Source of the DNA: a virus
IMG/VR virus record: IMGVR_UViG_3300042896_001365
Location: 1 to 44,746 of that record
Direction: 5' to 3' (one strand)
Length of the DNA: 44,746 bases
Part shown: positions 1 through 33,961 of the stretch, one piece after another
Position numbering within the stretch: position 1 is the stretch's first letter
How the letters are laid out: the number at the start of each line of letters is the position of its first letter
Notes under the pieces: model-generated
Told to the model about the DNA's origin: nothing
The model's database searches: none
What the model saw: the letters and a program-made list of their open reading frames with translations, nothing else
Program-made: the position numbers and the translations under genes

Positions 1-963
1 TCACCTGATTTTGCGCACGGCGGCCATCAGCGACGCAGAGGACAGATGCGAGTAGCGCGCCGTGCTGCGCTGGTCCTTGTGACCCAACACGGCGCCTACG
101 GTGTGCAGGTCGACATCGTTGTTGATCATCGCACTGGCGGCGCTGTGGCGCAGGTCATGTAAGTGCAGCATCGGGAACCCTGCCGCCGTCATTGCGCCGC
201 GCACCAGGCGTTGCAGCCATATTTTGCTGTGACTGAATGGCAGAAATCCCCGCACACATCGGATGCGATCGTGCATCGGTGCAATCCGATCCGATCCGTT
301 CTTCGTGTCGCGCAACAGAAACCCATCCTCAAGCACCTTGTTTTTCTTGCCCAGATCGAGCATTTCGCTCAAGCGCATGCCTGAATAGAACGCCAGCCGG
401 ATCAGTGCCCGCGCCTGGCGATCCTTGCACATGCGGGCAATCTTGATCATTTCGCGCCGCGTCACGTAGGTTTGCCGCTCATTGCGCACGGTCGGAAGTG
501 AAATGCGGTACTGCGCTTCCGGCTCGCCAATGCCGTGATGCTGCTGCGCATACCGGCACGCGGCCCGCAGGTAGGCCAGCTTGTTGCGGATGCTCGCAGG
601 TGACAACCGATCGCGCTCGGCATCGACGTACTCGCGGGCAACGGCGGCCAGCTCATCCATATACCGGCCATCGTAATACGCGGCCAGCCGCGCGAGTTCG
701 CGCGTGGCACCGTCGCCGTTCTTGAGCGACGGGCATCGCTGCTGAATGTAGAGCTTCACGGCGTCGAGGATCAGCCGCCGCTCTTTGATGACACCAGTTG
801 CAACGGCGTAGAGGCGGGCGACTTCGGTTTGATCGAACGCTTTTGCGGCGTTGCGATCCCAATCGAGCGGAAGAAGCTTTGACTGTCGGATGCGCTGCCC
901 TTGGACAACTTGATCGAATTCGAAGCGCCAGCGACGGTTGCGGTTATCATAACGAATAGACAT
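1..963 (-). CDS. int: Phage integrase, tyrosine recombinase (left-end)
   Basis: This 320-residue site-specific recombinase should integrate and excise the phage genome at the host att site. The C-terminal catalytic domain shows the whole active site: Arg in GMRLSE, Lys in DTKNGSDR, the HxxR box HDLRH, His in GHKDQ and the nucleophile Tyr in STARYSHL. The N-terminal part is an AP2-like and core-binding arm. I place the start at the ATG on 963 (MSIRYDNRNRRW) because that is where homology-like sequence begins. The frame stays open to 1029 upstream and overlaps the excisionase-like gene. The stop codon is the first triplet of the window, so the attachment site would lie just outside. It is the last gene of the leftward operon. 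The A7 run ending in its own start codon could allow a frameshift fusion with the preceding gene. Confidence 0.93.
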   Translation of the reverse strand: MSIRYDNRNRRWRFEFDQVVQGQRIRQSKLLPLDWDRNAAKAFDQTEVARLYAVATGVIKERRLILDAVKLYIQQRCPSLKNGDGATRELARLAAYYDGRYMDELAAVAREYVDAERDRLSPASIRNKLAYLRAACRYAQQHHGIGEPEAQYRISLPTVRNERQTYVTRREMIKIARMCKDRQARALIRLAFYSGMRLSEMLDLGKKNKVLEDGFLLRDTKNGSDRIAPMHDRIRCVRGFLPFSHSKIWLQRLVRGAMTAAGFPMLHLHDLRHSAASAMINNDVDLHTVGAVLGHKDQRSTARYSHLSSASLMAAVRKIR

Positions 964-1124
964 TTTTTTGCGTGATCTTCCACGTCCTTGGAGTTGAATC
1001 GAATGCAGCGTCGGCCAAACCTGACGCACGGTATCGGGCCATCTGGCGCTGCGAGATCATACATGGTGCGCCGACTGACGCCCAGCAAGTGGGCCGCGGC
1101 TTCGGCGTTGATCAGTGTTGTCAT
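771..1124 (-). CDS. Excisionase-like MerR/AlpA-type HTH protein
   Basis: Residues 1-55 form a compact winged HTH of the HTH_17/AlpA excisionase type: AAHLLGVSRRTMYDL is the helix-turn-helix and IPCVRFGRRCIRFNSKDV the wing. The likely role is a recombination directionality factor, or a regulator, for the adjacent integrase. Its ATG overlaps the upstream stop as ATGA (1121-1124), so translation is coupled. The last 60 codons overlap the integrase gene in another frame and encode a low-complexity Ser/Lys-rich tail that looks unselected. Either the protein carries this tail or the functional product uses the A7 slip at 963-969. DNA-binding assignment is firm, excisionase function is inferred from position. 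Confidence 0.7.
   Translation of the reverse strand: MTTLINAEAAAHLLGVSRRTMYDLAAPDGPIPCVRFGRRCIRFNSKDVEDHAKKCLFVMITATVAGASNSIKLSKGSASDSQSFFRSIGIATPQKRSIKPKSPASTPLQLVSSKSGG
963..969 (-). other. A AAA AAA slippery heptamer at the xis/int junction
   Basis: On the minus strand the excisionase-like frame reads GCA AAA AAA TGT. The seven A residues therefore lie exactly in the X XXY YYZ phase of a -1 slippery site. A -1 slip gives AAA AAA ATG, entering the integrase frame at its own Met. The integrase frame has no stop from 1029 down to the slip, so a fusion of about 374 residues (HTH plus recombinase) is possible. Transcriptional slippage on A7 could give the same product. Whether it is used is unknown. 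Confidence 0.5.
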
Positions 1125-2209
1125 TGCGTGGCCTTTTTCCGCGATTCAGAATCAATCAGCGCATGAATATAATCCAGGCACTGCATCGCCATTTTGTCAC
1201 CCTCGAAAACATGAGCGGCCGCCACAAGATGCTTCGGATCAACCATTTCAATGGCGCTGTTGACTTGGTCGACCGTGCGCAGCGGGCTGCCGATCAGATC
1301 GTGGCGCTTGAGATAGTCCATGGCCTTCATCGGCAATTCATGGGCTGGATCAGCTTTTTTCAGTTCGCGCATCAGGCGCGCAACGAGGCGCGACAGGTCC
1401 GGGACTCGCGCATCTGGCAACTTGCGCAATTTCGCAAGTTCTGGCGCCGGCCTGGGAAGTACGCGTAGCACCGCATCGGCAAGCCGGTCAATCTCACGCG
1501 AGTCGCACCAATCCGGCGTCTCTGCGCCGCTGGCAATTTCGTCGTTGATCGCTTGGCCGATGGTGTCGTGCAGGCTATCGTGCAAATTGCTATTTTTCGC
1601 AAGTTCAGGCGCCGGCTGCGCAACATCGAAAATATGTGACAGGTCTGGCGAATTCCTCATTGCCATGCCATGCAACACATTCATCCGCAGGACCAGCGTA
1701 CTCAGTGGTGTGCCTTTCCGGTTTGTACCGGCGCCGATCACCACGTCGCATGGCAGCGCCCAGCCCATAGGGTCGGCGGGCATGACGCTTGATTTTTCGA
1801 GTTCCGCAATGCGAGCCTTCAGTTGCCCAATTTCAGATACTTTGTCGCGCCATCCGGGAATGAAGCCGTCCAGCTCTTGAACGTCAAATCCGCCTCGGCA
1901 ATTTCTGCCCTCTAGGTCGATCATGGCGGGCTGCGGCGCCCATTTCTTGCTGTAAGCGTCATACGCTTCGAGATGCAGCGACCATGGAATGCCTGGTGTG
2001 AATCCTTGCACTGGCGCAATCTTTTCTTTCGGAGCGCTTGCAACTCGCTGGACAGCACTGGAAGCCTTCCATCCAGTCCAAAAGCATTCCGTGTTCAAGT
2101 TCATGTAGCCGTCTGCAAAATTTGCATCGGTCCTATCGCTGCGCGTGGTGTTCTGGTGGCGGCAATCGCACCATGCTTCAAACACCGCCCGCATTTTGTC
2201 GTTGCTCAT
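1121..2209 (-). CDS. Phage hypothetical protein of the leftward operon
   Basis: I do not recognise a defined function. The first 60 residues (RAVFEAWCD, then NTECFWTGWKA) resemble the N-terminal motif common to early proteins of lambdoid phages such as ead/Ea22-like proteins. The middle has a short coiled-coil stretch (IGQLKARIAELEKSS). The motif PAPELAK occurs twice, with matching DNA repeats near 1.44 and 1.60 kb, which suggests internal duplication or recombination. The C-terminus is helical. The start at 2209 has GAGG seven bases upstream and overlaps the rdgC stop by 4 bp, so the genes are translationally coupled. Soluble, no signal peptide or membrane segment seen. Confidence 0.75.
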   Translation of the reverse strand: MSNDKMRAVFEAWCDCRHQNTTRSDRTDANFADGYMNLNTECFWTGWKASSAVQRVASAPKEKIAPVQGFTPGIPWSLHLEAYDAYSKKWAPQPAMIDLEGRNCRGGFDVQELDGFIPGWRDKVSEIGQLKARIAELEKSSVMPADPMGWALPCDVVIGAGTNRKGTPLSTLVLRMNVLHGMAMRNSPDLSHIFDVAQPAPELAKNSNLHDSLHDTIGQAINDEIASGAETPDWCDSREIDRLADAVLRVLPRPAPELAKLRKLPDARVPDLSRLVARLMRELKKADPAHELPMKAMDYLKRHDLIGSPLRTVDQVNSAIEMVDPKHLVAAAHVFEGDKMAMQCLDYIHALIDSESRKKATQ

Positions 2210-3105
2210 GATTTCGCCTCGCCGCCCAGCGCCTCGACCAGGTCGGCCAGCATCCGCGCCAGCTCGCCGGTCATCAGGGCCATGTCGCTGTCGAATCGCT
2301 CGTCGCCGTTTTTCGGGCTCGATTCATTTTCCTTGATGACGTCGAGCGGCTTGATGCCTTTGATCGCCAGCGTTTCGGTCAGCACGAACGAGATTTTGCT
2401 ATCCCACGTCATCGCCAGGTGCGTGCACTGCTTGCCGGCTGCGATGTGGCGCCGCACGTCGTCCGCCTCGAGCGTGTGATTGACGTATTTCACCGTTGCA
2501 TGGCCCTCGCCAGTAGCGCGCATCGTGGCGTCCTGGTCGACCGTGAATCCGGCCGGTGCATCATCCGCCTGCAACCACTCGGTCATCACGGCGACCGGCG
2601 AGCGCTGCACGCGCAAGCTTTCCAGCGGCAACTTGTCGACCGCCTTCAGCAGCAGCTTGACCACTTCATCGGCCTTGCTCGGGCTGGCCGCATCGATCAC
2701 CAGCCAGCCGTTGATCGGATCGATCCAGATCTGGGTGCTCGACTCGATGCCGAACGCACGCGGCAGCAGCTCGTCGGCGACGCGCTCCTTCAATTCCTTC
2801 ATCGCCTTCTTGCCCAGTCCGAAACCCTGGGCTTCTTCCATTTCGATGGCGCGCGCCTTGGCCACCTGGTTGACCACGCTGGCCGGTAGCAGCTTCTTCT
2901 CGGTGCGCAGGTTCAGCAGGAACTGGCCGCCGACGGCGTGCACCAGCGGCGCGCCGGGTCCGCGCGGTGGCGCGAAGCCCTGGCGCAGCAAGTCCATGCT
3001 GGTGCACGGCACGAAAGAGTGGGGCGCCAGTGCATCAGCCAGCTGGTCGACGTTCACGGCCCAAGGTGCGGGAAGGCGGTAGATCTGGAGGTTCTTGAAA
3101 AACAT
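2206..3105 (-). CDS. rdgC: Recombination-associated protein RdgC
   Basis: This 299-residue protein begins with MFFKNLQIYRLP and has the length of the RdgC family. RdgC is a ring-shaped, non-specific double-strand DNA-binding protein that modulates RecA-dependent recombination; phage and plasmid copies are known. I start at 3105 (RBS AAGGA 7 bases upstream), not at the longer 3141 ORF. It lies between kfrA-like (30-bp gap) and the unknown gene at 1121 (4-bp overlap). In this operon it may protect or handle phage DNA during replication and integration, which is inference. The sequence looks intact. Confidence 0.93.
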   Translation of the reverse strand: MFFKNLQIYRLPAPWAVNVDQLADALAPHSFVPCTSMDLLRQGFAPPRGPGAPLVHAVGGQFLLNLRTEKKLLPASVVNQVAKARAIEMEEAQGFGLGKKAMKELKERVADELLPRAFGIESSTQIWIDPINGWLVIDAASPSKADEVVKLLLKAVDKLPLESLRVQRSPVAVMTEWLQADDAPAGFTVDQDATMRATGEGHATVKYVNHTLEADDVRRHIAAGKQCTHLAMTWDSKISFVLTETLAIKGIKPLDVIKENESSPKNGDERFDSDMALMTGELARMLADLVEALGGEAKS

Positions 3106-3134
3106 GTTTTGTCCTTGATTATTTGAGAGATAGT

Positions 3135-4028
3135 TCAGCAATCGTCCAGTTGCGATGCCATCAGCCCCGTCGATTTACTCGGTGGTGGCGTTGAAATTGA
3201 ATCGGCGATGGCCACCGGCATTGGCCTTGGGCCGGGAGTGGCGGACGCTGCCGGCGCCAGCGCTGGCGGCTGAATGGCAGCAACCGGCGCTGCCTGCAAG
3301 GCCTGGACCTGGGCGCGCAGCGCGTCGACCTCCTTTCGTTCCGATCGGGTATCGGCTTCTTCAGCGGCCAGGCGTTGCTGCAGGTCGGCCACCTGCTCAT
3401 CAGTCTTGGCCAGGGTTGCCGCAGCCACCGCCGCGATCTGTTCAGCCTTGACCCGAGCGACGTGCTCCAGCTCAAGCGCAGCCCGCAAGCGATCGATTTC
3501 CGCTTCTAACCGCGGAACGCCTTCGAGCCGCAGCTCGGTCTTCGCCTTTTCCGTTCTGGCCCACTCGGCGGCCAGGCGCTGGGACTGCGCGTCATTGCGC
3601 GATTCATCCAGGTCCGCGCTCAGCTGCGTCAGGCGGCCTGCTAGTTCGGCGTTCGTCGCCTGCAGGGTGTCGATGTCCTGCACTTGGGATTCGATGCTGG
3701 CATCCTGGCGCTCCGATTCCGCGATCAGGTCCGCATTCGATTGCTGGATCGTCACCATGTCCGATTCCAGCGCCGCCCGGGCGCTGGAGACTTCCTGGCC
3801 GATGAACTCCACCAGGGCGCGTTGCAGCGTCGCCGGCAAGATCGTGACGGCGCCGGGCGCCTGCATCTGTCCCGATTGCCATACCTGCAAGAACTTCAAT
3901 ATCGTGCCCATGCTGCCCCGGCCCATCGCCTCGCGCACCGATCTGGCGGCAGGCTTGACGCCAGCGGCGCGGATCTTGTCGGCCGCCGCGTTGACTTCTT
4001 CCTGGCTGATTTTTGCTTCGCGTACCAT
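3135..4028 (-). CDS. KfrA-type DNA-binding coiled-coil protein
   Basis: The N-terminal 60 residues (SQEEVNAAADKIRAAG, then ARSVREAMGRGS and ILKFLQVWQ) match the KfrA N-terminal DNA-binding domain of broad-host-range plasmids. Residues of about 75-235 are a long alanine-rich coiled coil, followed by a Pro/Ala-rich tail. Plasmid KfrA is an autorepressor and nucleoid-like organiser that helps segregation and forms multimers through the coil. The ATG at 4028 is preferred because GGAG lies six bases before it; two in-frame ATGs at 4040 and 4034 are upstream. It follows the actin-like ATPase gene, separated by a stretch rich in GTAACG repeats that is a natural candidate for its binding site. Confidence 0.82.
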   Translation of the reverse strand: MVREAKISQEEVNAAADKIRAAGVKPAARSVREAMGRGSMGTILKFLQVWQSGQMQAPGAVTILPATLQRALVEFIGQEVSSARAALESDMVTIQQSNADLIAESERQDASIESQVQDIDTLQATNAELAGRLTQLSADLDESRNDAQSQRLAAEWARTEKAKTELRLEGVPRLEAEIDRLRAALELEHVARVKAEQIAAVAAATLAKTDEQVADLQQRLAAEEADTRSERKEVDALRAQVQALQAAPVAAIQPPALAPAASATPGPRPMPVAIADSISTPPPSKSTGLMASQLDDC

Positions 4029-4044
4029 GCCCATCTCCATGTTT

Positions 4045-4092
4045 GTAACGTGTAACGTAACGGCTTGTGTAACGTGTTACCTGCGCCGTTAC
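4045..4092. repeat. GTAACG repeat cluster, candidate KfrA operator/centromere
   Basis: Between the actin-like gene and the kfrA-like gene the hexamer GTAACG occurs at 4045, 4052, 4057 and 4069, with inverted copies GTTAC at 4076 and CGTTAC at 4087. GTAAC-GT-GTTAC at 4069-4080 forms a hyphenated inverted pair. KfrA proteins bind repeats near their own promoter, and partition loci need an iterated centromere. This is the only such cluster seen near the two genes. Binding is inferred. Confidence 0.55.
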
Positions 4093-4103
4093 ACCTCACA
4101 TCG

Positions 4104-5156
4104 TTATGCTGCCGCGCGGTATTTTTCGGCCCACATGTGGTGCGCGTACAAGCCAAAGCGGCACAGCCCTTCGGCGATCGACATCGATGGGTTCGAATCG
4201 AGCACGGCATTGGGGAACACGCCCTGGATGCTGTCGATGACCAGCGGCGCGATGCCTCCGGAAACGATGACCCCGTTCAGGCGTTTCGCGGCACTGCCCA
4301 GCAGCGTCTGGGCGCGGTTGATGATCGCGGAGCGCAACGGCTGCACGGCGGCATCGATGATGTCGGACACGTCGATGTGTTTTCCGTAGTGCAGGACCTG
4401 GCCAGTCTTGATCGCTTCGTCGACCGATGCCAGTTCGTCCGAATAGCCGCGCGAATTGAATTCGGCCCTGACTGCCGAATAGACTTTCGATGCGCCGCCG
4501 ATCGAATCGCCGCCCACGGCCTGGAATTCGGTTTTCAGCAGGATCGAAAAATCGGTCGTGAAATGCCCGATGTCGATCACGGCCCATGAGTCGAACGCTT
4601 CGCGGTAGACCAGGTCCGGCAAACCGTCAGGCAAGTGCTGCAAGTTCTTCAGCGGCACCGCTGCTTGCGGCTGCACCAGGATCACCAGTTGCTGGCCAGG
4701 CGCCAGGTAAGCGCGCAGCAACTCCGTCACGCGCAGCTTCAAGGCATCTTTCTGCGTCTTGAAAAATGCGGACGGCAATCCCAGCGCCAGGTGGATCACT
4801 TGCGGACGGCAGTCGATCATCGACATCGCGCGCTGCCAGGCGCCGACGATCAAGACATCATGGACATGAGTGGCGATCCAGTCGCGCGATTCGCCCGAAA
4901 AACCGGCCGGCATCCCTTGCGCAATCGCGCTGTCGCCGAAAATGTAAGCGGCGCCATCGATCATCACGGTATTGAGCGCTACCCGGCGCGCCGTTTCGTC
5001 GTCGGGCATGTCGATGGCGGGAATGACGACGGTCGGGATCGTGGCGACATGGCGCAACGTCGGCCGGTCCAGCATCGCTGCCGCGACCTTGACCGAGCTG
5101 TGGCCGACATCGATGCCGAACGAGGCAAATCCAGCGAGCTGATGCATCTGGTGCAT
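4104..5156 (-). CDS. parM-like: ParM/StbA-type actin-like ATPase
   Basis: All nucleotide-binding motifs of the actin/Hsp70 fold are visible. Phosphate-1 is GIDVGHSSVKV near the N-terminus, phosphate-2 is VIDIGHFTTDF in the middle, and the adenosine motif is VIVSGGIAPL near the C-terminus. FGDSAIAQG is also typical of plasmid StbA/ParM relatives. Such proteins polymerise with ATP and move plasmid or phage DNA. The start at 5156 has AAGGA upstream; the longer reading from 5189 lacks an RBS. A classical ParR adaptor is not obvious: the 44-residue protein upstream and the KfrA-like protein downstream are the only candidates. It belongs to the leftward operon, so expression should follow PL. Confidence 0.85.
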   Translation of the reverse strand: MHQMHQLAGFASFGIDVGHSSVKVAAAMLDRPTLRHVATIPTVVIPAIDMPDDETARRVALNTVMIDGAAYIFGDSAIAQGMPAGFSGESRDWIATHVHDVLIVGAWQRAMSMIDCRPQVIHLALGLPSAFFKTQKDALKLRVTELLRAYLAPGQQLVILVQPQAAVPLKNLQHLPDGLPDLVYREAFDSWAVIDIGHFTTDFSILLKTEFQAVGGDSIGGASKVYSAVRAEFNSRGYSDELASVDEAIKTGQVLHYGKHIDVSDIIDAAVQPLRSAIINRAQTLLGSAAKRLNGVIVSGGIAPLVIDSIQGVFPNAVLDSNPSMSIAEGLCRFGLYAHHMWAEKYRAAA

Positions 5157-5179
5157 GGGGTTTCCTTTTGGTAGGGCAG

Positions 5180-5314
5180 TTATGGGCAAACAGCTTTATC
5201 GGCCAACTGCGCCAGGTATTCGGCAGCCGTCATGTGGACAACCGTCTTGCTGCTGCCGTTGACGATGCCGAGCATCACGCGGCGCAGGGAGGTGGGCTTG
5301 ATTTTGAGTTTCAT
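5180..5314 (-). CDS. 44-residue protein, first gene of the leftward operon
   Basis: The ORF encodes 44 residues beginning MKLKIKPTSLRRVMLG and ending LAQLADKAVCP. It has a strong AGGAG seven bases before the ATG and stops 23 bp before the actin-like gene. It is basic at the N-terminus and helical at the C-terminus (TAAEYLAQLADKA). The family is unknown to me. Its place directly upstream of the actin-like gene makes a small DNA-binding or filament adaptor conceivable, but nothing in the sequence proves that. The good RBS and operon position are the reasons for calling it. Confidence 0.6.
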   Translation of the reverse strand: MKLKIKPTSLRRVMLGIVNGSSKTVVHMTAAEYLAQLADKAVCP

Positions 5315-5358
5315 GAGTTGCTCCTGGTTGTTGCGGATATAGGGTGTTTACACAGCAA

Positions 5359-5403
5359 ACTATACACGAACGAATAGATAAATCAATACGCGAATGGATA
5401 AAT
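5359..5403 (-). promoter_or_regulatory. Leftward early promoter PL with repressor operator
   Basis: On the minus strand TTGATT (5386-5381) and TATAGT (5364-5359) are spaced by 16 bp, a good sigma-70 promoter pointing at the leftward operon. The spacer and -10 are filled by TATACACGAACGAATAGATA (plus strand, 5361-5380). The same 20-mer with one mismatch occurs, inverted, at 8565-8584 in front of the Cro-like gene. CGAATRGATAAAT recurs at 5371 and 5391, suggesting a second operator half. This is the expected lambda-like OL/OR pairing, read directly from sequence. Confidence 0.8.
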
Positions 5404-6254: not shown

Positions 6255-6557
6255 ATGTTCGAAATTATCCAAAGTGACACATTCAAGCACTGGCGGGCGG
6301 GCCTCAAGGACCGTCAAGCTGTTCTGCGCATCAGCGCCCGCATTCGTCGCTTATCCATGGGCAATCCCGGCGACGTGAAGCCCGTTCGGAGTGGCGTCAG
6401 CGAGTTGAGGATCGATTGCGGCCCAGGCTACCGTGTGTATTTCATGCGCAGCGGGCCATTGGTGATCTTGCTGCTGGCCGGTGGCGACAAGCGCACGCAG
6501 GATGCGGACATCGAGCGTGCTATTGCAATTGCAAAAAACTGGAAGGATGAACCATGA
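6255..6557 (+). CDS. RelE/HigB-type toxin (Gp49-like addiction module killer)
   Basis: The 100-residue basic protein has the RelE/ParE-superfamily pattern of phage-derived Gp49-like/HigB toxins. It shows FKHWRAGLKDRQAVLRI near the start, then GVSELRIDCGPGYRVYF in the core and VILLLAGGDKRTQDADI near the end. These toxins are usually ribosome-dependent mRNases. It precedes its antitoxin (reverse order, as in higBA) and overlaps it by ATGA at 6554-6557. A perfect palindrome lies in the promoter. The full length and motifs suggest it is active. It may stabilise the prophage or act against other phages. Confidence 0.88.
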   Translation: MFEIIQSDTFKHWRAGLKDRQAVLRISARIRRLSMGNPGDVKPVRSGVSELRIDCGPGYRVYFMRSGPLVILLLAGGDKRTQDADIERAIAIAKNWKDEP

Positions 6558-6850
6558 CTGAGAAATTTTCCCGCTGGGATGCGGCTGACGACTTGAAAAC
6601 CGATGAAGACGCTGCCGCTTATTTCGACATCTGCGTCGAGGAAGATCCGGGCGACGGTAGCCTGATACGGGCTGCCTTGGGCGACATCGCACGTGCGCGC
6701 AGCATGAGCCAACTGGCCAAGGACACGGGCCTGGCGCGTGAAGGTCTTTACAAGGCGCTGTCTGCCGAAGGCAACCCGGAATTTGCGACGATCATGAAGG
6801 TGATCAAGGCGCTCGGCTTGTCGCTGCATGCGTCACCCCATCACGCGTAG
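6554..6850 (+). CDS. HigA-type antitoxin, HTH (addiction module antidote)
   Basis: The 98-residue protein ends in an XRE-like HTH. MSQLAKDTGLAREGLYKAL is the recognition region, followed by NPEFATIMKVIKALGLSL, the signature of the addiction-module antidote family paired with Gp49-like toxins. The acidic N-terminal half likely wraps the toxin. The start is the ATG coupled to the toxin stop. It should neutralise the toxin and repress the operon at 6229-6246. Confidence 0.88.
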   Translation: MTEKFSRWDAADDLKTDEDAAAYFDICVEEDPGDGSLIRAALGDIARARSMSQLAKDTGLAREGLYKALSAEGNPEFATIMKVIKALGLSLHASPHHA

Positions 6851-7629: not shown

Positions 7630-7854
7630 TCAACTCTGGTCCAGCAGCGTGCGCATCATGCGCTTCAGGTCGGCCAGTTCGTCCAACACGGTGTCGAGCG
7701 GGCTGGCTTGCAGCCTGGCGACGATCTCCGCGTTCATGCTGCGGCCGTTGTTCTCTGCCGTAGCTTGTATTTCGGCGTGCAGCTCGCGCGGCATTCGTAC
7801 CGCAGTTTGAATGTAATCTGTTTGTGTTTGCTTCTGAGTCGGAGGCATTTTCAT
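7630..7854 (-). CDS. Arc-family ribbon-helix-helix DNA-binding protein
   Basis: Seventy-four residues with the Arc pattern: IQTAVRMPRELHAEIQATAE forms the beta strand and first helix, and NNGRSMNAEIVARLQ the second helix with the conserved SMNAEI. Arc relatives bind as dimers of dimers to short inverted sites and repress their own promoter. It is the first gene of the leftward accessory operon. A 22-bp inverted repeat overlaps the likely -10 region just upstream. No clear RBS precedes ATG 7854; the second ATG at 7848 is an alternative. Confidence 0.88.
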   Translation of the reverse strand: MKMPPTQKQTQTDYIQTAVRMPRELHAEIQATAENNGRSMNAEIVARLQASPLDTVLDELADLKRMMRTLLDQS

Positions 7855-7961: not shown

Positions 7962-8114
7962 ATGGAAAACTTGCCTAAAATTATTGCCGCCTATATTGCA
8001 ATGGACCAAAGGGCGAAAGATGACAATTTGACGACGATGACGGCTGATGCCATACGGTACCCGGCGCCATGCATCCCCAAATTACGACTTATTGTGGGCG
8101 GAGTCAGGAAATAA
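7962..8114 (+). CDS. Possible 50-residue protein convergent with the repressor gene
   Basis: A 50-codon ORF (MENLPKIIAAYIAMDQRAKD at the start) has a strong GGAGG five bases before ATG 7962 and ends 33 bp inside the 3' end of the repressor gene on the other strand. It is divergent from the Arc gene. No family is recognised, and no transmembrane segment is seen. The RBS is the main support; the overlap and short length keep the call uncertain. Confidence 0.42.
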   Translation: MENLPKIIAAYIAMDQRAKDDNLTTMTADAIRYPAPCIPKLRLIVGGVRK

Positions 8115-8504
8115 TGTCTTTACCGCATCTTTGGCAACATCCTTTATCCGCTCTCTCCCCCGCTGATCAGCGCAGCGATACCAGCTCAAAATGTTGTATT
8201 CATCATCAGTGACAAGCTGAACCCTGGCCGGTGGTGGTGTCTCGATCGCGTCTAGATCGAATCCCTCTGCGTGCCTAAAAGTACTTTTACTGTATTCCCC
8301 TTGACCTTCATGCAACCAGTCAAAGGAGACATTACACGCCTGGGCCAACTTCACTAGCGTGTGTGCTTCTGGCCCCTTCTTGCCTACGCCTTTCAGGATT
8401 CGATTAATCGTCGGCTGAGGTACACCAGATGCCCGGTGCAGGGCACTCTGAGATTCAAACCCTGCCTTCCTCATCGCTTCGTCAAGTCTGCTTGCTATGT
8501 TCAT
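8082..8504 (-). CDS. cI-like: Phage repressor (CI-like HTH, no peptidase domain)
   Basis: Starting at ATG 8504 the protein has 140 residues: an XRE HTH (LDEAMRKAGFESQSALHRA, then VPQPTINRILKG) and a short C-terminal region of about 70 residues. There is no LexA/S24 Ser-Lys autoprotease, so classical RecA-driven cleavage is unlikely and induction must work otherwise. It diverges from the Cro-like gene across a 90-bp operator region. A -10 like TATATT on the minus strand ends 7 bp before the ATG, and no SD sequence is present, so its mRNA may be leaderless as for lambda cI. The longer reading from 8552 would run through the operators and is rejected. Confidence 0.85.
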   Translation of the reverse strand: MNIASRLDEAMRKAGFESQSALHRASGVPQPTINRILKGVGKKGPEAHTLVKLAQACNVSFDWLHEGQGEYSKSTFRHAEGFDLDAIETPPPARVQLVTDDEYNILSWYRCADQRGRERIKDVAKDAVKTLFPDSAHNKS

Positions 8505-8510
8505 GGCTGG

Positions 8511-8588
8511 AATATACATCCGTGTATAGCGTTGATGCCAACGCTTATTCATTCAAGTATTGCTTATCTATTCATTCGTGTATATATT
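8511..8588. promoter_or_regulatory. Lambda-like switch: operators and divergent promoters
   Basis: Four sites are seen. TATACATCCGTGTATA (8513-8528) is a palindrome with perfect 6-bp arms. GCGTTG-ATGC-CAACGC (8529-8544) is a second palindrome. TTATTCATTCAAGTAT (8545-8560) and TATCTATTCATTCGTGTATA (8565-8584) are related sites, the latter matching the PL operator 19/20 in inverse orientation. Rightward promoter: TTGCTT (8560-8565), 17 bp, TATATT (8583-8588). Leftward -10: TATATT on the minus strand (8516-8511). In both directions the predicted start of transcription coincides with the ATG. Confidence 0.78.
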
Positions 8589-8855: not shown

Positions 8856-9062
8856 ATGTCACTCGAACTGATCGCCACCGATACGAAACTGACCGCTGAA
8901 GACTTGGCCATCGTAGATGCCATGTGCCTGGTCACCGGCGTCAGCAAGTCTGAATTTTTGCGGGGAATCATTCAAGCCGCCCTCAATGCCGAACTCAACA
9001 AGGCCAGAGTAATCGACGACGCCCTGGTTGCGAAGGGATTCAGCAGAGGGATACGGAGGTGA
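8856..9062 (+). CDS. Small helical protein after cro, possible RHH regulator
   Basis: Sixty-eight residues, with a predicted two-helix unit (EDLAIVDAMCLVTGVSKSEF, then LRGIIQAALNAELNKA) reminiscent of ribbon-helix-helix proteins. It sits where lambda has cII, 15 bp after the Cro-like stop. A role as an early regulator is plausible from size and position only. The RBS is weak. Confidence 0.6.
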   Translation: MSLELIATDTKLTAEDLAIVDAMCLVTGVSKSEFLRGIIQAALNAELNKARVIDDALVAKGFSRGIRR

Positions 9063-9488: not shown

Positions 9489-9866
9489 ATGAAAATCATA
9501 CCACAGTCACGCATCAATATCCCCGCCAAGTCGCTTCGGCGCCACACGCTCTTGATGGCCATGCTCGAAGGCAGCGGCACGATTTACCAAATCTGCGAGC
9601 GCGCCGACATCGACATCGGAACCGTCACCCAGGAGCACGCCGTGCGCCACTTGTTCGAGCTGATGATCCAGTCCGGGCTCGCCCGCATCGATGGCATCGT
9701 TTATTCGATCAGCCGCCATGCGCGCGCCGCGCTGGCGCCAGTTGCGCCCGCACCGCTCGGCCAGGCCGCGACATCGCATTACCGCGGACCGGCCTGCGCC
9801 ATGCCGGTCACGCACACCATCCGCCACGCTTCACAAAAAACAACAACGCAAGGAATCGCAGCATGA
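9489..9866 (+). CDS. Phage protein with winged-helix-like N-terminus
   Basis: This 125-residue protein opens a tightly coupled ten-gene operon. Residues 18-70 (LRRHTLLMAMLEGSGTIYQI, then VRHLFELMIQSGLARI) look like a small winged helix used by phage regulators or replication accessories. The C-terminal half is Ala/Thr-rich and probably disordered. The stop overlaps the ParB-like start by ATGA. Function is unknown. Confidence 0.65.
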   Translation: MKIIPQSRINIPAKSLRRHTLLMAMLEGSGTIYQICERADIDIGTVTQEHAVRHLFELMIQSGLARIDGIVYSISRHARAALAPVAPAPLGQAATSHYRGPACAMPVTHTIRHASQKTTTQGIAA

Positions 9867-11458
9867 ACGACATCAATTTCAGAACCTTGCTGCTGGCCGA
9901 TCTGACGCCATCGCCAACCAACCCGCGCAAGCATTTCGATGCGACCGCGCTGGCCGAGCTGGCCGACAGCATCGCGCAGCAGGGCCTGGCCCAGCCGATC
10001 CTGGTGCGCCCGATTCTGGATACCGGTCGCTATGAAATTGTGGCTGGCGAGCGGCGCTACCGCGCGTCAAGCCTGGCGGGCCTCTCCACCATCATCGCCG
10101 TCGTGCGCAACCTGTCGGACCTGGAAGCGCTCGAGCTGCAAGTGATCGAGAATTTACAGCGCGCCGATCTGCACCCGATGGAAGAGGCGCAGGGATACGC
10201 GCAACTGATGCAGGCGCACAACTTCACCGCCGACCAGTTGGCGGACAAGGTCGGCAAGAGCAAATCCTACATTTACAACCGGCTCAAGCTGCTGGACCTG
10301 GCGCCGGCGGGGCAAGAGGCGTTTTATGCCGGGAAGTTGACGCCGGCCACCGCGCTGCTGGTGGCGCGCATCCCCGTGCCGGAATTGCAGGCGCGCGTGG
10401 TGGCGGAAATCACATCATCTGGCAATTACAACCAGGAGGTGATGACGGCGAAGCAGGCGGCGCACCATATCCATCTGAAATATATGCTGCAGCTGAAGCA
10501 GGCGCCGTTCAAGACCGGCGACGCGACACTGGTGCCGGCCGCCGGCGCCTGCGGTGCATGCCCGAAGCGCACCGGCAACCAGCCGTTGCTGTTCGAGGAC
10601 ATCGAGAGCCTGGACACGTGCACCGATCCGGACTGTTTCGAGCTCAAGCGCGAGGCCGGCAAGCGGCGCACGCTGGCCGATGCCAAGCAGGCCGGGCAGA
10701 ACGTCATCCGCGGCGTAGAGGCCAGGCGGATCATGCCGAACAGCTACAGCGGATGCTCGTTGAGCGAGGGCTATGTCGCGATCACCGATACCTGCTTCGA
10801 CGACGTAAAGAAACGTACCTTCGCGCAGATCCTCGGCAAGTCGCCGGCGGTCAGCCTGATGGAGGACCCGCACCGGGGCACGCTGATCAAGGTGGTCAAG
10901 ATCGACGATATCCGCGCGACGCTGGCAGAAAGCGGCATCCGGCCGCGCGCCAGCGTCGTCAGCGACAACACCAGGCAGCGCGCGCTCGAGGCGAAGGTCA
11001 AGGCCGAGAAGGAATACCGGCGTCGCCTGTTCATTGCGGTGCGCGATCGCGCCGAACCCGTGATCGATCGCGCCATGCTGAACGACGTCGCAACCAGGTT
11101 GTATCTGAATTCGGCTTACACCGAGCGGCCATTCATGGCGGGCCTGTACGAATTCCAGAAAAGCATGGTCGAATATCCCGGCGCATCTGAAAAAACGCAC
11201 GCAGTCATGGCGGCGATGGATGATGCGACGATCAACCGGCTGATCCTCGATTGCATGCTGCTCGATGAGCTGTCGGTCAGCCACCACACACCCGACGGCA
11301 AGCCGGAAAAGCTGCTTGCGGCCGCCGCGCGTGTGGGCGTCGATCCTGGTGATATCAGGGCCTCCATCAAGGCCGAGGTCAAGGCCAAGCTCAGTGCAAA
11401 GGCGGGCGCCAAGAAAAAACCGGCAGCGAAAAAAACAGCATCCACGGTGCCGGCATGA
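9863..11458 (+). CDS. parB-like: Large ParB/RepB/Spo0J-family protein
   Basis: The N-terminal 150 residues are a typical ParB core. LTPSPTNPRKHFD begins the domain, GERRYRA is the CTP-binding box, ENLQRADLHPMEEA is the second box, and TADQLADKVGKSKSYIYNRL is the HTH. It continues to 531 residues, about twice the length of chromosomal ParB. A Cys cluster (CGACPKRTG, then CTDPDCFELK) may bind zinc, and the tail is Lys/Ala-rich. Members of this long type occur in phages and mobile elements and may partition DNA, regulate transcription or, in some relatives, cut DNA. No ParA is next to it; the only cytoskeletal partner in the window is the actin-like ATPase at 4104-5156. ATGA overlaps occur at both ends. 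Confidence 0.85.
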   Translation: MNDINFRTLLLADLTPSPTNPRKHFDATALAELADSIAQQGLAQPILVRPILDTGRYEIVAGERRYRASSLAGLSTIIAVVRNLSDLEALELQVIENLQRADLHPMEEAQGYAQLMQAHNFTADQLADKVGKSKSYIYNRLKLLDLAPAGQEAFYAGKLTPATALLVARIPVPELQARVVAEITSSGNYNQEVMTAKQAAHHIHLKYMLQLKQAPFKTGDATLVPAAGACGACPKRTGNQPLLFEDIESLDTCTDPDCFELKREAGKRRTLADAKQAGQNVIRGVEARRIMPNSYSGCSLSEGYVAITDTCFDDVKKRTFAQILGKSPAVSLMEDPHRGTLIKVVKIDDIRATLAESGIRPRASVVSDNTRQRALEAKVKAEKEYRRRLFIAVRDRAEPVIDRAMLNDVATRLYLNSAYTERPFMAGLYEFQKSMVEYPGASEKTHAVMAAMDDATINRLILDCMLLDELSVSHHTPDGKPEKLLAAAARVGVDPGDIRASIKAEVKAKLSAKAGAKKKPAAKKTASTVPA

Positions 11459-13930: not shown

Positions 13931-14679
13931 GCATCGACATCAACCAATTGCTGGCACTGATCGCAGCACGACCGAAAATTCGTACGGTGGAGATTGCCGA
14001 CATCATGGATTGCGATCCCCACCAGGTACAGCCGCTGCTGCAATCCAGCATTGATGCCGGTACGGTCATCCTGCACCTGGTGACGGCGCCCAACGGCAAG
14101 CCGGCGAACGGGTTTGAAATGCGGCCCAGCCCGGCGCCGGCCAAGATCGGCATCGAGGCGCGCGGCGTCGACATCGATTCCGTACACGGCAGCAAGACCC
14201 GCAACCACACGCATGGCTTGCCGTTGACGAAAGTGGACCGCGCCATCGCCTTCGTAGCGGCGCACGGCGGTGCTACCTCCGAGCAGCTGCATGCCGAGAT
14301 GGGGTTGAAGGTTGGTCATTCGGTGGTCAGCTTCTTGCGAGGCCCGGTCGCAGATGGCCGGCTGCTCAAGGATGGCAGTTGCTGGTCGCTGCCGCCCGAG
14401 CGCGGCGCCGCTGTAACTGCTGCATCTGCTGCACCTGTGCCCGTCTCGCCAGCCTTGGTGGTAGTGGCGGATGCTGCGTCAGTTCCGCTGCCAGCTCCCG
14501 TCATTGAGCTTCCTACATTGATTGAGCTTCCTACATTGGACGTCGATGCCTCCGGGTTCCGCTGCGCGATCTGGTCGGATGGTGCGATGGAGTTGCAGCG
14601 TGCCGGCCGCACGCTGGCGACGTTGACGACGATCGAGCAGACGCAGCTGAGCCAGTTTCTGAGGCGCATTGCCGCATGA
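13927..14679 (+). CDS. Phage protein with two winged-helix-like domains
   Basis: Residues 8-60 (IAARPKIRTVEIADIMDCDP) and 100-160 (DRAIAFVAAHGGATSEQLHA, then KVGHSVVSFLRGPVADGRLL) each look like a winged helix. A Pro/Ala/Val linker follows, containing an exact tandem repeat IELPTL-IELPTL, encoded by a duplicated 18-bp unit at about 14504-14539. The C-terminal domain (GFRCAIWSDGAMELQRAGRT) resembles one seen in phage DNA-binding proteins. It may be a regulator. The last gene of the chain, the second recombinase, is coupled to it by ATGA. Confidence 0.7.
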   Translation: MSIDINQLLALIAARPKIRTVEIADIMDCDPHQVQPLLQSSIDAGTVILHLVTAPNGKPANGFEMRPSPAPAKIGIEARGVDIDSVHGSKTRNHTHGLPLTKVDRAIAFVAAHGGATSEQLHAEMGLKVGHSVVSFLRGPVADGRLLKDGSCWSLPPERGAAVTAASAAPVPVSPALVVVADAASVPLPAPVIELPTLIELPTLDVDASGFRCAIWSDGAMELQRAGRTLATLTTIEQTQLSQFLRRIAA

Positions 14680-15719
14680 CATGCCACGTTTTCAAGATCG
14701 GCCCGGTGTGGCATTACCGCTTCCAGGTCGACGGCGTGCGGATCCAGAAATCGACGCGCCAGCGCGTCCGGAAGCTGGCCGAGCCGGTCGCGCAGCGCGC
14801 CTATGCCGATGCGTTGACCAGGTCGAACGGCGGGGCCCCGGTACCCACGCTGGCCGAGCTGATCAAGGATTGGCGCGAAGTCCATGCGCCAGTATCGAGC
14901 GCGGCACATGCGCGCAGCGTCGAGATTTGCGAGCGCCTGCATTTGTACGACCTGGGCGCGATGGCGGTCGATACGATTTCGACCACGCACATCGAGCTTG
15001 CGCGCAACGAACATTTGCTGACGCACAAGCCAGCCAGCGCAAACCACTGGTTGAGGATACTCAAGCTCGTGGCCAACTGGGCCGTCAAGCGCGACATCAT
15101 CGCCCATCTGCCGTGGCGCGCCTCCATGCTCAAGGTCCAGAAGCGTCCGCGCGCGATCTTGCCGATCGATGTCGCCGCAGTGTGGTTCGACGCCATCGAT
15201 GAGGCCTGTTCCGGTACGCCGTCGGTCGGTACCGCGATCCGCATGATGTTCGGCCTCGGTTTACGCGAGTCGGAGTCCGCCAGCGCGCGATGGGAATGGA
15301 TCGACTGGCAGCGTGCGACCTACACGCCGGGCATCACGAAAGGGCGCGAAGCCGAGCCGGTGCCGATGCCAGACTGGCTGGTAGCTCATTTGATGACGCT
15401 GCGCAAAGCCGAGGGCTTGATCGCGACCAGGGCCAACGGCAAGCCGCACCCGCCCGGCTTCGCCCGCAAGGTCATGAATGCGGCGAATGCAGCATGTGCG
15501 ATCAAAGGCATCACGCCGCACAGGCTGCGCGGAACATTTGCTACGTTGCTGTCGGAAGCAGGGGTGCCGATCCAGACGATACAAAAAGTCATGCGGCACA
15601 AAAGCCCGATGACGACGATGGCCTATCTGGAAAAGAATTTGAACACGGCGGCACTGGCGCAAAACATGATCGCCGGCAAGATCGGTTTCAGCGCTCAAGA
15701 TGAAAAACGGGCGCAATAA
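14676..15719 (+). CDS. Second tyrosine recombinase/integrase
   Basis: This 347-residue protein has the complete catalytic set: Arg in GLGLRESE, Lys in GITKGREAEPVPMP, the HxxR box HRLRGTF, His in MRHKSPM and Tyr in TTMAYLEK. The N-terminus is a core-binding domain. It is not a close copy of the left-end integrase. Unusually, it is the last gene of the replication chain, coupled by ATGA to the preceding gene, so it should be made during lytic growth. Directly after its stop lies an 82-bp sequence that recurs 0.97 kb downstream. It may resolve genome multimers, act at the second repeat, or be the integrase of a captured element. Confidence 0.9.
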   Translation: MTCHVFKIGPVWHYRFQVDGVRIQKSTRQRVRKLAEPVAQRAYADALTRSNGGAPVPTLAELIKDWREVHAPVSSAAHARSVEICERLHLYDLGAMAVDTISTTHIELARNEHLLTHKPASANHWLRILKLVANWAVKRDIIAHLPWRASMLKVQKRPRAILPIDVAAVWFDAIDEACSGTPSVGTAIRMMFGLGLRESESASARWEWIDWQRATYTPGITKGREAEPVPMPDWLVAHLMTLRKAEGLIATRANGKPHPPGFARKVMNAANAACAIKGITPHRLRGTFATLLSEAGVPIQTIQKVMRHKSPMTTMAYLEKNLNTAALAQNMIAGKIGFSAQDEKRAQ

Positions 15720-31381: not shown

Positions 31382-33077
31382 TTTTCAAATCACGATCAGC
31401 GCGGTTGACCGGGCAACGAATGTCGTGCGCCGGATCAACAACGAATTTTCGCGCGGATTCCGGCCTCTGGTGAATCTGTACCGCTCAGCCCGTCGACTGG
31501 GCGCAGAAATTAGCCGCAATCCGATTGCCAATGTGCTGATCCGGGTTGCCCGTGTCGCCGGGAACGTGGCTGTCGGATTCACCAAAATTGCCGCCCCATT
31601 GGCTGCATTGATCGGCGTCGGCACCATCGCCAGCATTGTCACGCTGGCCACCGAATGGGGCCGCGTCGGATTTGAAATCACGAAAACCGCGCTTGGCATG
31701 GGCATGGCGGCGACCGACCTGCAATCGCTGCGCGGCGCAGCCGAACTGGCCGGCGTATCTGCCGATGTGCTGACCAACTCGCTGAAGTCGGTCGGTGACA
31801 CGATGCAGGACGCGCTGGGCGGGCGCAATCAGACCGCGCTGGTGATGCTGAACAAGATCGGCGTCAGCATTCACAAGACGGCCGATGGCTCGATCGATGT
31901 GGTGCGCGGATTCAAGGACATCGCGACCTACATCGCGAATATCAAGAGCGCCCAGGTTCAAGGCCTGGTCGCGCGCCAGTTCGGTCTCGAGGGCGCACTG
32001 CCGCTGCTGCGCAAGGGGGCTGCCGGCATTGAGGAGTACCAGCGCAAGATCGCCGAGTTTGGCGGCACATCGACTGCTGCAGGCATCGCTGCCGCCGAAC
32101 AGTTTGGCTTGAGCCTCAATTATTTGATGGCATCCGCCGGCGGCTTGAAGATTGCAATTGGGGCAGCGATCATGCCGGCGCTGCAGCCCATGGTCGCCGA
32201 GTTTACCAAGTTCATCAACTTGAACCGCGAGCCCATCGGCCAGCAAATCGGCGTCTGGGCCAAGCAGGTCGGTGACTGGATCAAGGAGACCGATTTTTCA
32301 AAGGCGGCAGCCAGCGCGATGGAGTTCGGGCGCGCTGTCGTCTATATCGTCGACAGCGTTGCCAAGTTGATTGCGACGCTGTCCAAGCTGCAGATGTCGC
32401 CGATGAAGTATGTTTTTGGCGGCTTTCCCCGGATGGTATTCGATGCCGTAACAGGCAATCCGGACCAGACCGGCCAGGCGCCATCAAAGGCGGCATCGCC
32501 ATCGCAAAGGGGCGTCATCTTGCCGCTCGCATCGGCTGCTGCGACACCAGCAGCGGCGCCAGCGGCATCCGCGCAGCAAAGAAGCGGAACCCCTGTAGGA
32601 ATACGAAATAACAATCCCGGCAATCTTCGGTCGTGGGGATCGGTCCCGCAGCGCGGCGGCTTCGCGGCGTTCGAGACGCCCGAAGCCGGCCTGGCTGCAA
32701 TGATCAGAAATCTGCAGACGCAGCAAAGCAAGCACGGCTTGAACACGATCCAGGGGATCGTCAGCAAGTGGGCGCCCTCGAGCGAAAACGACACCGATGG
32801 CTATGTCAAGAGCGTCGAAAAGCAAACCGGCTTCGGCCGTAACCAAAAGCTCGACTTGAACGATAAAAAAACGGTTGCCCCGTTGGTGTCGGCCATCATC
32901 AAGCAAGAAGGCAACAGCGCCGGGTACAGCAAAAGCATGGTTGAGGACGCGGTGACAAAAGTGGTGGTTGAATTCAAGAATGCGCCATCCGGCACCAGTG
33001 CGGCGTCCAGCGTCAAGGGCGGCGCAATGACGCCCGTGCGCATCAGCTACGCGATGCCGACACTGGCGGCAGGATGA
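31371..33077 (+). CDS. Tape measure protein with C-terminal muralytic domain
   Basis: The start is GTG 31371, with GAGGA upstream. The 568-residue protein has a helical tape region and hydrophobic stretches (about residues 60-100, and a Gly/Ala-rich segment near 260). Near residue 400 comes GIRNNNPGNLRSWG, then GGFAAFETPEAGLAAMIRNL and SKWAPSSENDTDGYV, a domain of structural peptidoglycan hydrolases of the lysozyme/P5 type. The domain should open the cell wall during DNA injection. It sets tail length, and the size implies a fairly short tail. The stop overlaps gpN by ATGA. Confidence 0.88.
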   Translation: MANNFQITISAVDRATNVVRRINNEFSRGFRPLVNLYRSARRLGAEISRNPIANVLIRVARVAGNVAVGFTKIAAPLAALIGVGTIASIVTLATEWGRVGFEITKTALGMGMAATDLQSLRGAAELAGVSADVLTNSLKSVGDTMQDALGGRNQTALVMLNKIGVSIHKTADGSIDVVRGFKDIATYIANIKSAQVQGLVARQFGLEGALPLLRKGAAGIEEYQRKIAEFGGTSTAAGIAAAEQFGLSLNYLMASAGGLKIAIGAAIMPALQPMVAEFTKFINLNREPIGQQIGVWAKQVGDWIKETDFSKAAASAMEFGRAVVYIVDSVAKLIATLSKLQMSPMKYVFGGFPRMVFDAVTGNPDQTGQAPSKAASPSQRGVILPLASAAATPAAAPAASAQQRSGTPVGIRNNNPGNLRSWGSVPQRGGFAAFETPEAGLAAMIRNLQTQQSKHGLNTIQGIVSKWAPSSENDTDGYVKSVEKQTGFGRNQKLDLNDKKTVAPLVSAIIKQEGNSAGYSKSMVEDAVTKVVVEFKNAPSGTSAASSVKGGAMTPVRISYAMPTLAAG

Positions 33078-33961
33078 GCATCGATAGCGCGCTGGGTGCG
33101 CTGCAATCGATCACGACGACCATCGGCAGCGCATCGAACATCGTTGCGCGCACGGCGCTGGACCTGGGCGCAGCAGGGCCGGCCGCCGGCGCATATTGGA
33201 AAGACAGTTTGCGCCCGGCATCGTTTCGGGGTGTACCGTTCGGCGTGCTTGGCGCGACCGGCAAATTTGGCCGGCGCAATGCGGTCCATGAATATCCGTT
33301 CCGGGACAAGACGTGGGTCGAGGATCTGGGCAAGTCGGCGCGCCGGATCAATATTTCCGGCTTCCTGGTGGGCGAGGATTGCATCGCACAGCGCGAGCGC
33401 ATGATCGCGGCCGCAGAAGGTGCAGGCGACGGTGAACTGATCCATCCTACGCTTGGCCGACTCAAGGTCAGCACGATCGAATTCACGACCGAGGAAAAAT
33501 GGGACCGTGGCCGCGTCTTCGAAGTCACATTCGCGTTCATCGAAGCTGGCGACCGGATATTCCCCAGCGTGGCGCCATCAACCGGCGATGCGGTGACGGC
33601 TGCGGCTGCTGCGGCCGACAAAGCCGCCAGCGGCGATTTTGTGGCTTCCACGCTGGCCCTGGTGAAGAAGGGCGCGTCGGTGGTATCGCAAGTTGCCAGC
33701 ACCGCTGCGGCATGGGGTCGCCAGGCGCAGCGCCTGGCCAATGATGCGACGAATCTGCACAACATGGTCGGCTCGCTGTCGGGCGGATTCGGTCGCTATT
33801 TCAAAGGCGGCGGCATCGCCGGTGCGGTCGCTGCCGTCGGAGCGGTCGCCAGCGCATCCAATTCGATATCGGGCTTGATTGCGCTCGGATCGCGGGCGCG
33901 CTCGGCGGTGTCGTCCGCGATCGGCAAGATGACATCGGCAGCAACGGAGATCGGATCATGA
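33074..33961 (+). CDS. DNA circularization/tail protein gpN, N-terminal part
   Basis: The 295-residue protein starts at the ATGA overlap. WKDSLRPASFRGVPFGVLGA, then FPFRDKTWVEDLGKSARR-like and ISGFLVGEDCIAQRERMIAA are the DNA_circ_N signature of Mu gpN. The protein joins the tail hub. Family members usually run to about 430-480 residues. Here the reading frame stops after the N-terminal domain and an Ala-rich linker, and the usual C-terminal domain appears as a separate gene. Confidence 0.85.
   Translation: MSIDSALGALQSITTTIGSASNIVARTALDLGAAGPAAGAYWKDSLRPASFRGVPFGVLGATGKFGRRNAVHEYPFRDKTWVEDLGKSARRINISGFLVGEDCIAQRERMIAAAEGAGDGELIHPTLGRLKVSTIEFTTEEKWDRGRVFEVTFAFIEAGDRIFPSVAPSTGDAVTAAAAAADKAASGDFVASTLALVKKGASVVSQVASTAAAWGRQAQRLANDATNLHNMVGSLSGGFGRYFKGGGIAGAVAAVGAVASASNSISGLIALGSRARSAVSSAIGKMTSAATEIGS

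Follow-up and report, generated by a model that had tools for sequence, protein, structure and literature searches.

A KfrA-type protein in the ParR position of a ParM-type actin locus: a candidate adaptor in a temperate phage

Introduction

What could couple a ParM-type actin to phage DNA where no ParR is found? The question is raised by the IMG/VR virus record IMGVR_UViG_3300042896_001365, which we analysed over its whole length of 44,746 nucleotides (nt; hereafter, the window). The window belongs to a contractile-tailed temperate phage, as judged by its integrase, terminase, portal, sheath and tape measure genes. Its leftward operon, read on the minus strand from 5314 to 1, encodes in order a 44-residue open reading frame (ORF), a ParM-type actin, a KfrA-type protein, RdgC, a 362-residue protein, an HTH/excisionase-like protein and an integrase. 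We tentatively propose that KfrA replaces the ParR adaptor in a ParM-type DNA-positioning cassette, perhaps as a KfrA-ParR chimera, and would link ParM filaments to phage DNA after induction. A competing account, in which the two proteins act independently, is nearly as likely, and both are weighed below.

Results

Is the actin a ParM? The three ParM-type motifs named in a preliminary description of this DNA (GIDVGHSSVKV, VIDIGHFTTDF and VIVSGGIAPL) are all present in its translation, and the protein matches the Pfam models MreB-like_C (8e-12) and ALP_N (8.5e-10), both over cut-off, as well as PHROG_691, 'partition protein' (1.9e-32). The curated ParM models, which represent other ParM branches, score under their cut-offs: Pfam PF21523 gives 19.8 bits against 27.4, and the NCBIfam models PRTRC_D and ParM NF010498 give 61.1 against 214.8 and 18.8 against 417. 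A profile made from 26 relatives of the actin recovers pCBH ParM at 2.6e-26 and the R1 ParM chains at 2e-6 to 8e-6. The AlphaFold model (predicted local distance difference test score, pLDDT, 88.6; predicted template modelling score, pTM, 0.88) has the actin fold with the phosphate-1, phosphate-2 and adenosine motifs, and its nearest structures in Foldseek are the pCBH, B. thuringiensis and pSK41 ParMs. VIA-align superposes the model on Ta0583 (Z 27.6, root-mean-square deviation 3.4, 302 residues aligned), pCBH ParM (Z 26.9, 4.6, 313) and R1 ParM (Z 24.9, 3.4, 286); because Hsp70 chains reach Z 25.0 with the same model, these Z scores are not specific to ParM among actin-fold ATPases. Residues D16, G18, S20, K23, D202 and G300-G301 are invariant across 26 sequences. 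By these profiles and the predicted structure, the window actin is a ParM-family protein.

Relatives of this ParM define what ordinarily stands next to it. None was found among 50,697 phage records; plasmids hold 93 records, each below 60% identity, and the genome contigs 34, at 37% identity at most. The viral contigs gave a single relative, L147 (IMGVR_UViG_3300046007_006556), which at 64% identity is the closest ParM found, and against which the intact window frame has a ratio of nonsynonymous to synonymous substitution rates (dN/dS) of about 0.37 by a simple counting method. Genome searches add at least 18 of 392 genomes from the Noviherbaspirillum-genome family (the stronger ones at 34-39% identity), at least 63 of 349 from the Paraburkholderia-genome family (32-37%) and at least 14 of 230 from the order of the first match. 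In these searches, and in those with KfrA, five to nine candidates were scored per genome, which makes each count a minimum; neighbours were read for the returned loci, up to 30 per search. L147, also a contractile-tailed phage, carries parM and a 138-residue gene between those for the tape measure and the baseplate hub. Likewise, in the plasmid and genome loci with a readable downstream gene, parM precedes a small gene for a protein with a C-terminal linker and short tail, and one of these proteins is annotated as ParR; at several other loci there is no clear downstream frame listed, or the contig ends there. We call these proteins ParR-like on the basis of profile recovery, and the L147 partner on the basis of its place, profile and tail; no Pfam RHH domain was found in the three tested, the L147 partner included.

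In the window it is kfrA that occupies this slot, directly after parM. Nothing in the window convincingly matches a profile built from 20 ParR-like proteins (best E 0.09), and the same procedure recovered three of three left-out controls (L147 at 1.1e-5, L003 at 4.9e-19, L152 at 9.5e-27), although its sensitivity is limited in that ParRs diverge fast. In this the profile search agrees with the preliminary description, in which no ParR homologue was seen. Two proteins with real RHH matches, an Arc-type protein at 7630-7854 and a CopG-type protein at 8856-9062, were considered and rejected as ParR: both lie away from parM, have neither linker nor tail, and are absent from the ParR-profile matches. 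Upstream of parM we found no parC iterons: apart from the two operator-like repeats, this region has only families of two copies. The same scan finds just two- or three-copy families upstream of parM in L147, L003 and L148, and is therefore not sensitive.

Two observations concern the ParM relatives themselves. The parM and ParR-like genes of L147/L215 (8013-9469 in L147) form a moron-like insert in the tail-gene region. In L205-L211, parM is followed by a ParR-like gene whose product has a tail such as SPIARWLQT or SPSMRRWLTD, and the loci on contigs above 6 Mb (L207 and L209) are probably chromosomal.

What kind of protein stands in the ParR slot? Its head is a KfrA N-terminal domain, as the preliminary description had it (Pfam KfrA_N, 1.1e-16, 62 bits against a cut-off of 26.1). 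AlphaFold predicts helices over residues 13-55, a single helix of about 185 residues over 70-254 (pLDDT mostly above 90), consistent with a long alpha-helical coiled coil, and disorder over 255-301; the model was made with three sequences in the alignment and has a mean pLDDT of 74.6, a pTM of 0.32 and a head at only about 40-60. The frame is intact, with a dN/dS of about 0.22 for head and coil against L218 (simple counting method).

The C-terminus sets this KfrA apart. Eleven of its last 60 residues are prolines, where the 23 KfrA rows compared with it have 0-6, and its last 12 residues carry a charge of -2, where the 41 other distinct KfrA tails comprise 31 positive, 6 neutral and 4 negative ones (that of L227 also -2); there is no basic C-terminal tip of the kind found in RA3. 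The ParR-like protein of L147 ends in ...SRMQLDDS behind a Pro/Ala-rich linker. When the last 55 residues of the window KfrA are aligned with the last 60 of the L147 protein, the BLOSUM62 score is 54, a value reached by none of 1306 C-termini of related phage loci (maximum 45) and none of the 65 Pro-rich ones among the controls, which are the longest non-overlapping open frames of at least 150 residues in L006-L137 and may include some non-genes. Against the same L147 end, none of 43 other KfrAs scores above 37, the remaining 19 ParR-like proteins score 25-44, and the next best frame of the window scores 46 (33043-33765, minus strand). For the last 12 residues alone, the window score against the L147 tail is reached by 2 of 1212 controls of this kind, and the window ranks first among 42 distinct KfrA tails. 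ParR-like tails track the relatedness of their ParMs (Mantel r 0.78, a value reached in 0 of 2000 permutations; the window was excluded), and the best match of the window tail among 27 ParR-like tails is that of L147, the partner of the nearest ParM. These tails were chosen by eye, 28 being kept, 27 of them distinct; those dropped had no clear downstream frame, lay at a contig end or were near-identical. By sequence comparison the tail resemblance is real but short, and either fusion or convergence could have produced it. Both this resemblance and the ParR-like gene in the corresponding slot of L147 go beyond the preliminary description.

Is the pairing of ParM and KfrA found elsewhere? KfrA relatives occur in 142 plasmid records, in at least 89 of the 392 and 39 of the 349 genomes, and in two virus contigs (L216 and L217) with RepA, ParA and ParB genes nearby, possibly phage-plasmids with a plasmid-type KfrA; the 50,697 phage records hold none. 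We examined 66 KfrA sources: besides the window, these were 60 genome loci, three plasmid loci and two virus contigs, most of them read with 1.5 kb of flank on either side. A KfrA frame is present at E <1e-10 in 63 of them, and only in the window does a ParM stand beside it; nor does one appear in nine wider stretches of up to 20 kb. No second pair was found in the viral contigs, or among the loci read from the genomes (392, 349 and 230 for ParM, 392 and 349 for KfrA). Neither gene was found in the loci of 80 terminase and 52 rdgC relatives, fetched with flanks of 10 or 8 kb at most, and no ParM was found in 50 virus records drawn from these 132 relatives, in a search that had no positive control of its own; a single-sequence ParM search in a separate run did recover L147. 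In the open-access literature, judged by title or the start of the abstract, we found no paper treating a ParM-KfrA pair. Actin, KfrA and the 44-residue protein were not found as a recurring module, the window being the one KfrA locus in 63 with a ParM. As a separate observation, ORFs of about 360 residues with a similar early stretch around DWKQEL or DWKGEL stand beside distant KfrA genes with LC-ending tails in L297 (8382-9476) and L299 (8380-9456), and a shorter frame in L298 (13100-13450) has NWKGEL.

Where might the KfrA bind? GTAACG occurs nine times in the window, against 10.5 expected, and five of the nine copies lie within 48 nt, at 4045-4092. This cluster had been put forward as the candidate centromere of the actin. 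TAAC, GTAAC or TATC repeats also stand directly upstream of other mobile-type kfrA genes with no parM nearby, and for this reason the cluster is predicted to be first of all a KfrA operator; for the same reason we reject an actin-specific centromere as the primary reading. Within the upstream 80 nt, at least two motif hits are present in 24 of 24 KfrA rows with E <1e-60 (the window and three near-duplicates included) and at most one in 17 of 17 rows of a chromosomal KfrA-like clade, the other 22 rows having 0 to 6; the motif set is loose and was picked after the sequences had been read, and start codons were guessed. A promoter-like pair, TTGnnn-16/17-TATCAT, spans the repeats in 7 of the 24 strong rows, and TTGnnn-17-TAACAT in 3 more. 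A consensus scan finds no such pair in the window cluster, which fits, as weak evidence, transcription of kfrA from the phage promoter. The RA3 KfrA operator is described as five 9-bp repeats across the kfrA promoter (PMC7783346). If KfrA is the adaptor, the cluster could also serve as a DNA handle.

The positions of the features are collected in Table 1. Actin and KfrA stand, as first described, in the leftward operon with rdgC, xis and int, and they and the 44-residue frame are all on the minus strand. Repressor control of this operon is likely, because its start and the repressor region have a 21-nt operator-like site in common: the sequence at 5361-5381 recurs at 8564-8584, with one base different, just past the start of the repressor-like gene, and none of 100 shuffles gives such a pair. 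Promoter-like matches in the operon-start region are at chance level (5 found, 3.7 expected). For the 44-residue ORF, Pfam and NCBIfam give no match and PHROG only one at chance level (E 0.26); tblastn finds nothing in the phage records, to which that search was limited, leaving plasmids and genomes aside. With the ParR profile also without a match, its candidacy as ParR is unsupported, and nothing ties it to segregation, the role first suggested for it.

Elsewhere in the window, a second tyrosine integrase (14676-15719, plus strand; Phage_integrase 3.4e-17) lies in the rightward replication region, in addition to that of the leftward operon. The rightward operon encodes a 531-residue ParB-domain protein (9863-11458, plus strand; ParB_N 5.3e-29), and no ParA match accompanies it among the window proteins scanned, a subset of the ORFs. 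Two overlapping ORFs at 6255-6850 (plus strand; 100 and 98 residues) we take, from their translations, to resemble a HigB/RelE-type toxin and an HTH antitoxin.

Table 1. Positions of the features discussed, in window coordinates.
Feature	Position	Strand	Remarks
Source record (whole window)	IMGVR_UViG_3300042896_001365, 44,746 nt		virus
Integrase	1-1029		leftward operon
rdgC	2206..3105	-	gene after kfrA in the operon; RdgC 1.3e-110 over the whole frame 2206-3141
KfrA C-terminal segment	3138..3302	-	Pro/Ala-rich linker and ...MASQLDDC tail, ParR-like
kfrA, KfrA-type protein	3135..4040	-	ATG 4040, more likely ATG 4028 (GGAG ahead; relatives start M.REA)
GTAACG/GTTAC repeat cluster	4044..4100	.	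directly upstream of kfrA; KfrA operator-like, candidate DNA handle
parM, ParM-family actin-like ATPase, 350 residues	4104..5156	-	likely start ATG 5156, AAGGAAA ahead; in-frame TTG 5189 possible
44-residue ORF	5180..5314	-	likely ATG 5314, ribosome-binding site AGGAGC ahead
Promoter-like match	5359..5386	-	operon start; overlaps the 21-nt operator-like site
Repressor-like HTH protein	8082..8552	-	HTH_3 4.2e-09

Discussion

How would such a cassette work? We propose that, once the repressor is lifted, the leftward operon would be transcribed, as the common operator-like site suggests, and that ParM, to judge from its predicted fold, would form filaments. The KfrA head may bind the GTAACG cluster upstream of its own gene, given the conserved place and motif of such repeats, and the protein may then polymerise along its coiled coil, in the manner of plasmid KfrAs, which are described as polymerising on operator DNA (PMC7821693). 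Polymerisation would cluster the disordered C-terminal tails, so that many are presented together as in a ParR ring. ParR C-tails are reported to bind a hydrophobic pocket of ParM, with the segrosome at the growing filament end (PMC5016525); similarly, the acidic-hydrophobic end ...MASQLDDC may grip the end of the ParM filament, as its likeness to the L147 partner suggests. The filament could then move, space or concentrate the excised phage circles during replication. A precedent is the prophage CGP3, for which PMC4446434 reports that efficient phage replication requires the actin AlpC together with AlpA, an adaptor that is transcribed with it and binds repeats next to the operon. The C-terminal segment may derive from a ParR that formerly occupied the slot, or may be convergent. 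In its most specific form, the proposal holds that the protein is a natural chimera of a KfrA head and coil with a ParR linker and tail, by which the actin exchanged a parC-type site for a KfrA operator as its target and was put to use by the phage to move or gather its excised DNA after induction; this version we consider doubtful.

Several observations weigh against KfrA as the adaptor, and against the chimera in particular. There is a single example, from one genome. The tail tests were framed after the tail had been noticed; compositional BLASTP gives no significant match between the window KfrA and the L147 ParR-like protein, and we found neither DNA-level similarity nor a fusion trace between their genes. 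With composition-preserving shuffles, the linker match stands at z 2.7 and 3 of 300 shuffles reach its score (z at most 1.3 for the other 19 ParR-like proteins), and composition accounts for part of the resemblance. When each tail is scored by its best match among the 27 ParR-like tails, 63 of 1212 controls equal or surpass the window and one other KfrA (L256, 23) lies above it (21); when scored by the mean over tails, 9 of 1212 do as well. The KfrAs of L227, L231 and L233 end in MDLC, ARLC and AQLC with no ParM in the roughly 20-kb stretches read, so a Cys-ending hydrophobic tail can exist without a ParM. Only 15 of the 27 ParR-like proteins have their best-matching tail in the partner of the nearest ParM. 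Finally, no Pfam match to an RHH fold was found for the L147 partner. This last point, together with the promoter-like pattern present in just 7 (and 3 more) of the 24 strong KfrA rows, lowers the weight that we give to both the adaptor and the chimera, and raises that of the account in which ParM and KfrA are unconnected.

In that account, which has nearly the same probability as the adaptor proposal, ParR was lost and ParM acts either by itself or with a partner that is unrecognised or comes from the host. KfrA would have entered the operon together with its own operator, as an unconnected DNA-binding, nucleoid-like protein that regulates its own expression and has a variable tail. Chromosomal ParM systems apparently without ParR are reported in PMC12270681. 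The absence of ParM from the 62 other KfrA loci, the operator-like repeats found at all 24 strong KfrA genes including that of the window, the free variation of KfrA tails and the silence of BLASTP on tail homology all agree with independence. It leaves unaccounted for the placement of kfrA in the parR slot and a C-terminus that differs from those of 43 other KfrAs and most resembles that of the nearest ParM's partner. Weak evidence against it is also the lack in the window cluster of the promoter-like pair seen in 7 (and 3 more) of the 24 strong rows. Were parM and kfrA instead plasmid-derived cargo heading for decay and functionless in the phage, one would understand why ParM is missing from the 50 relative virus records, why neither protein occurs among the 50,697 phage records, and why the L147 pair sits like a moron among tail genes; the intact frames, their dN/dS values, the ribosome-site-like sequence ahead of each gene and the retention of the residues invariant in 26 ParMs make such a passenger cassette improbable. 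We rate as very improbable a role for the 44-residue protein as ParM adaptor or regulator: its ORF ends 24 nt ahead of the parM ATG and has a good ribosome site, but Pfam, NCBIfam, the ParR profile and the phage records gave no match to it, and the L147 listing, inspected by eye, holds no similar ORF.

If KfrA does act as the adaptor, the ParM motor could be re-addressed through an exchange of the adaptor's DNA-binding half, the short tail being the part to keep, and a peptide of about 12 residues would decide which actin an adaptor uses. This would explain the spread of actin cassettes among replicons with unrelated centromeres. KfrA, which serves ParAB plasmids as an accessory protein, would moreover gain a second motor partner, and CGP3 would be joined by a further integrating phage with an actin of its own for DNA positioning.

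How does the locus compare with known systems? It resembles ParMRC, the type II plasmid partition system (R1, pSK41 and pCBH ParM), in its actin-fold ATPase with ParM-type motifs and in the candidate adaptor gene directly downstream, whose product ends in a predicted disordered linker and a short acidic-hydrophobic tail. It differs in having KfrA in the slot where no ParR was found, in showing repeats between parM and kfrA rather than an iteron array upstream of parM, and in lying in a phage leftward operon, not on a plasmid. Similarly, the window KfrA has the KfrA_N head, the long predicted coiled coil and the repeats directly upstream that characterise KfrA of IncU RA3 and IncP-1 R751; unlike these, it has an acidic C-terminus with a Pro-rich linker, where PMC7783346 describes a basic tip in RA3, and its gene sits behind an actin gene with no ParA/ParB pair beside it.

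With AlpA/AlpC of CGP3, as described in PMC4446434, the window has in common a prophage actin and a DNA-binding candidate adaptor in one operon, with repeats by the operon and expression expected on induction. The adaptor gene comes first in CGP3 and second in the window, and CGP3 has 24 alpS repeats against about five GTAACG units here. Finally, L147 has the closest ParM found, at 64% identity, and a partner with the similar tail; unlike the window, L147 has a small ParR-like gene after parM, carries the pair between tape-measure and baseplate genes, and has no KfrA in its 19.8-kb contig, just as none was found near the ParMs of L205-L214.

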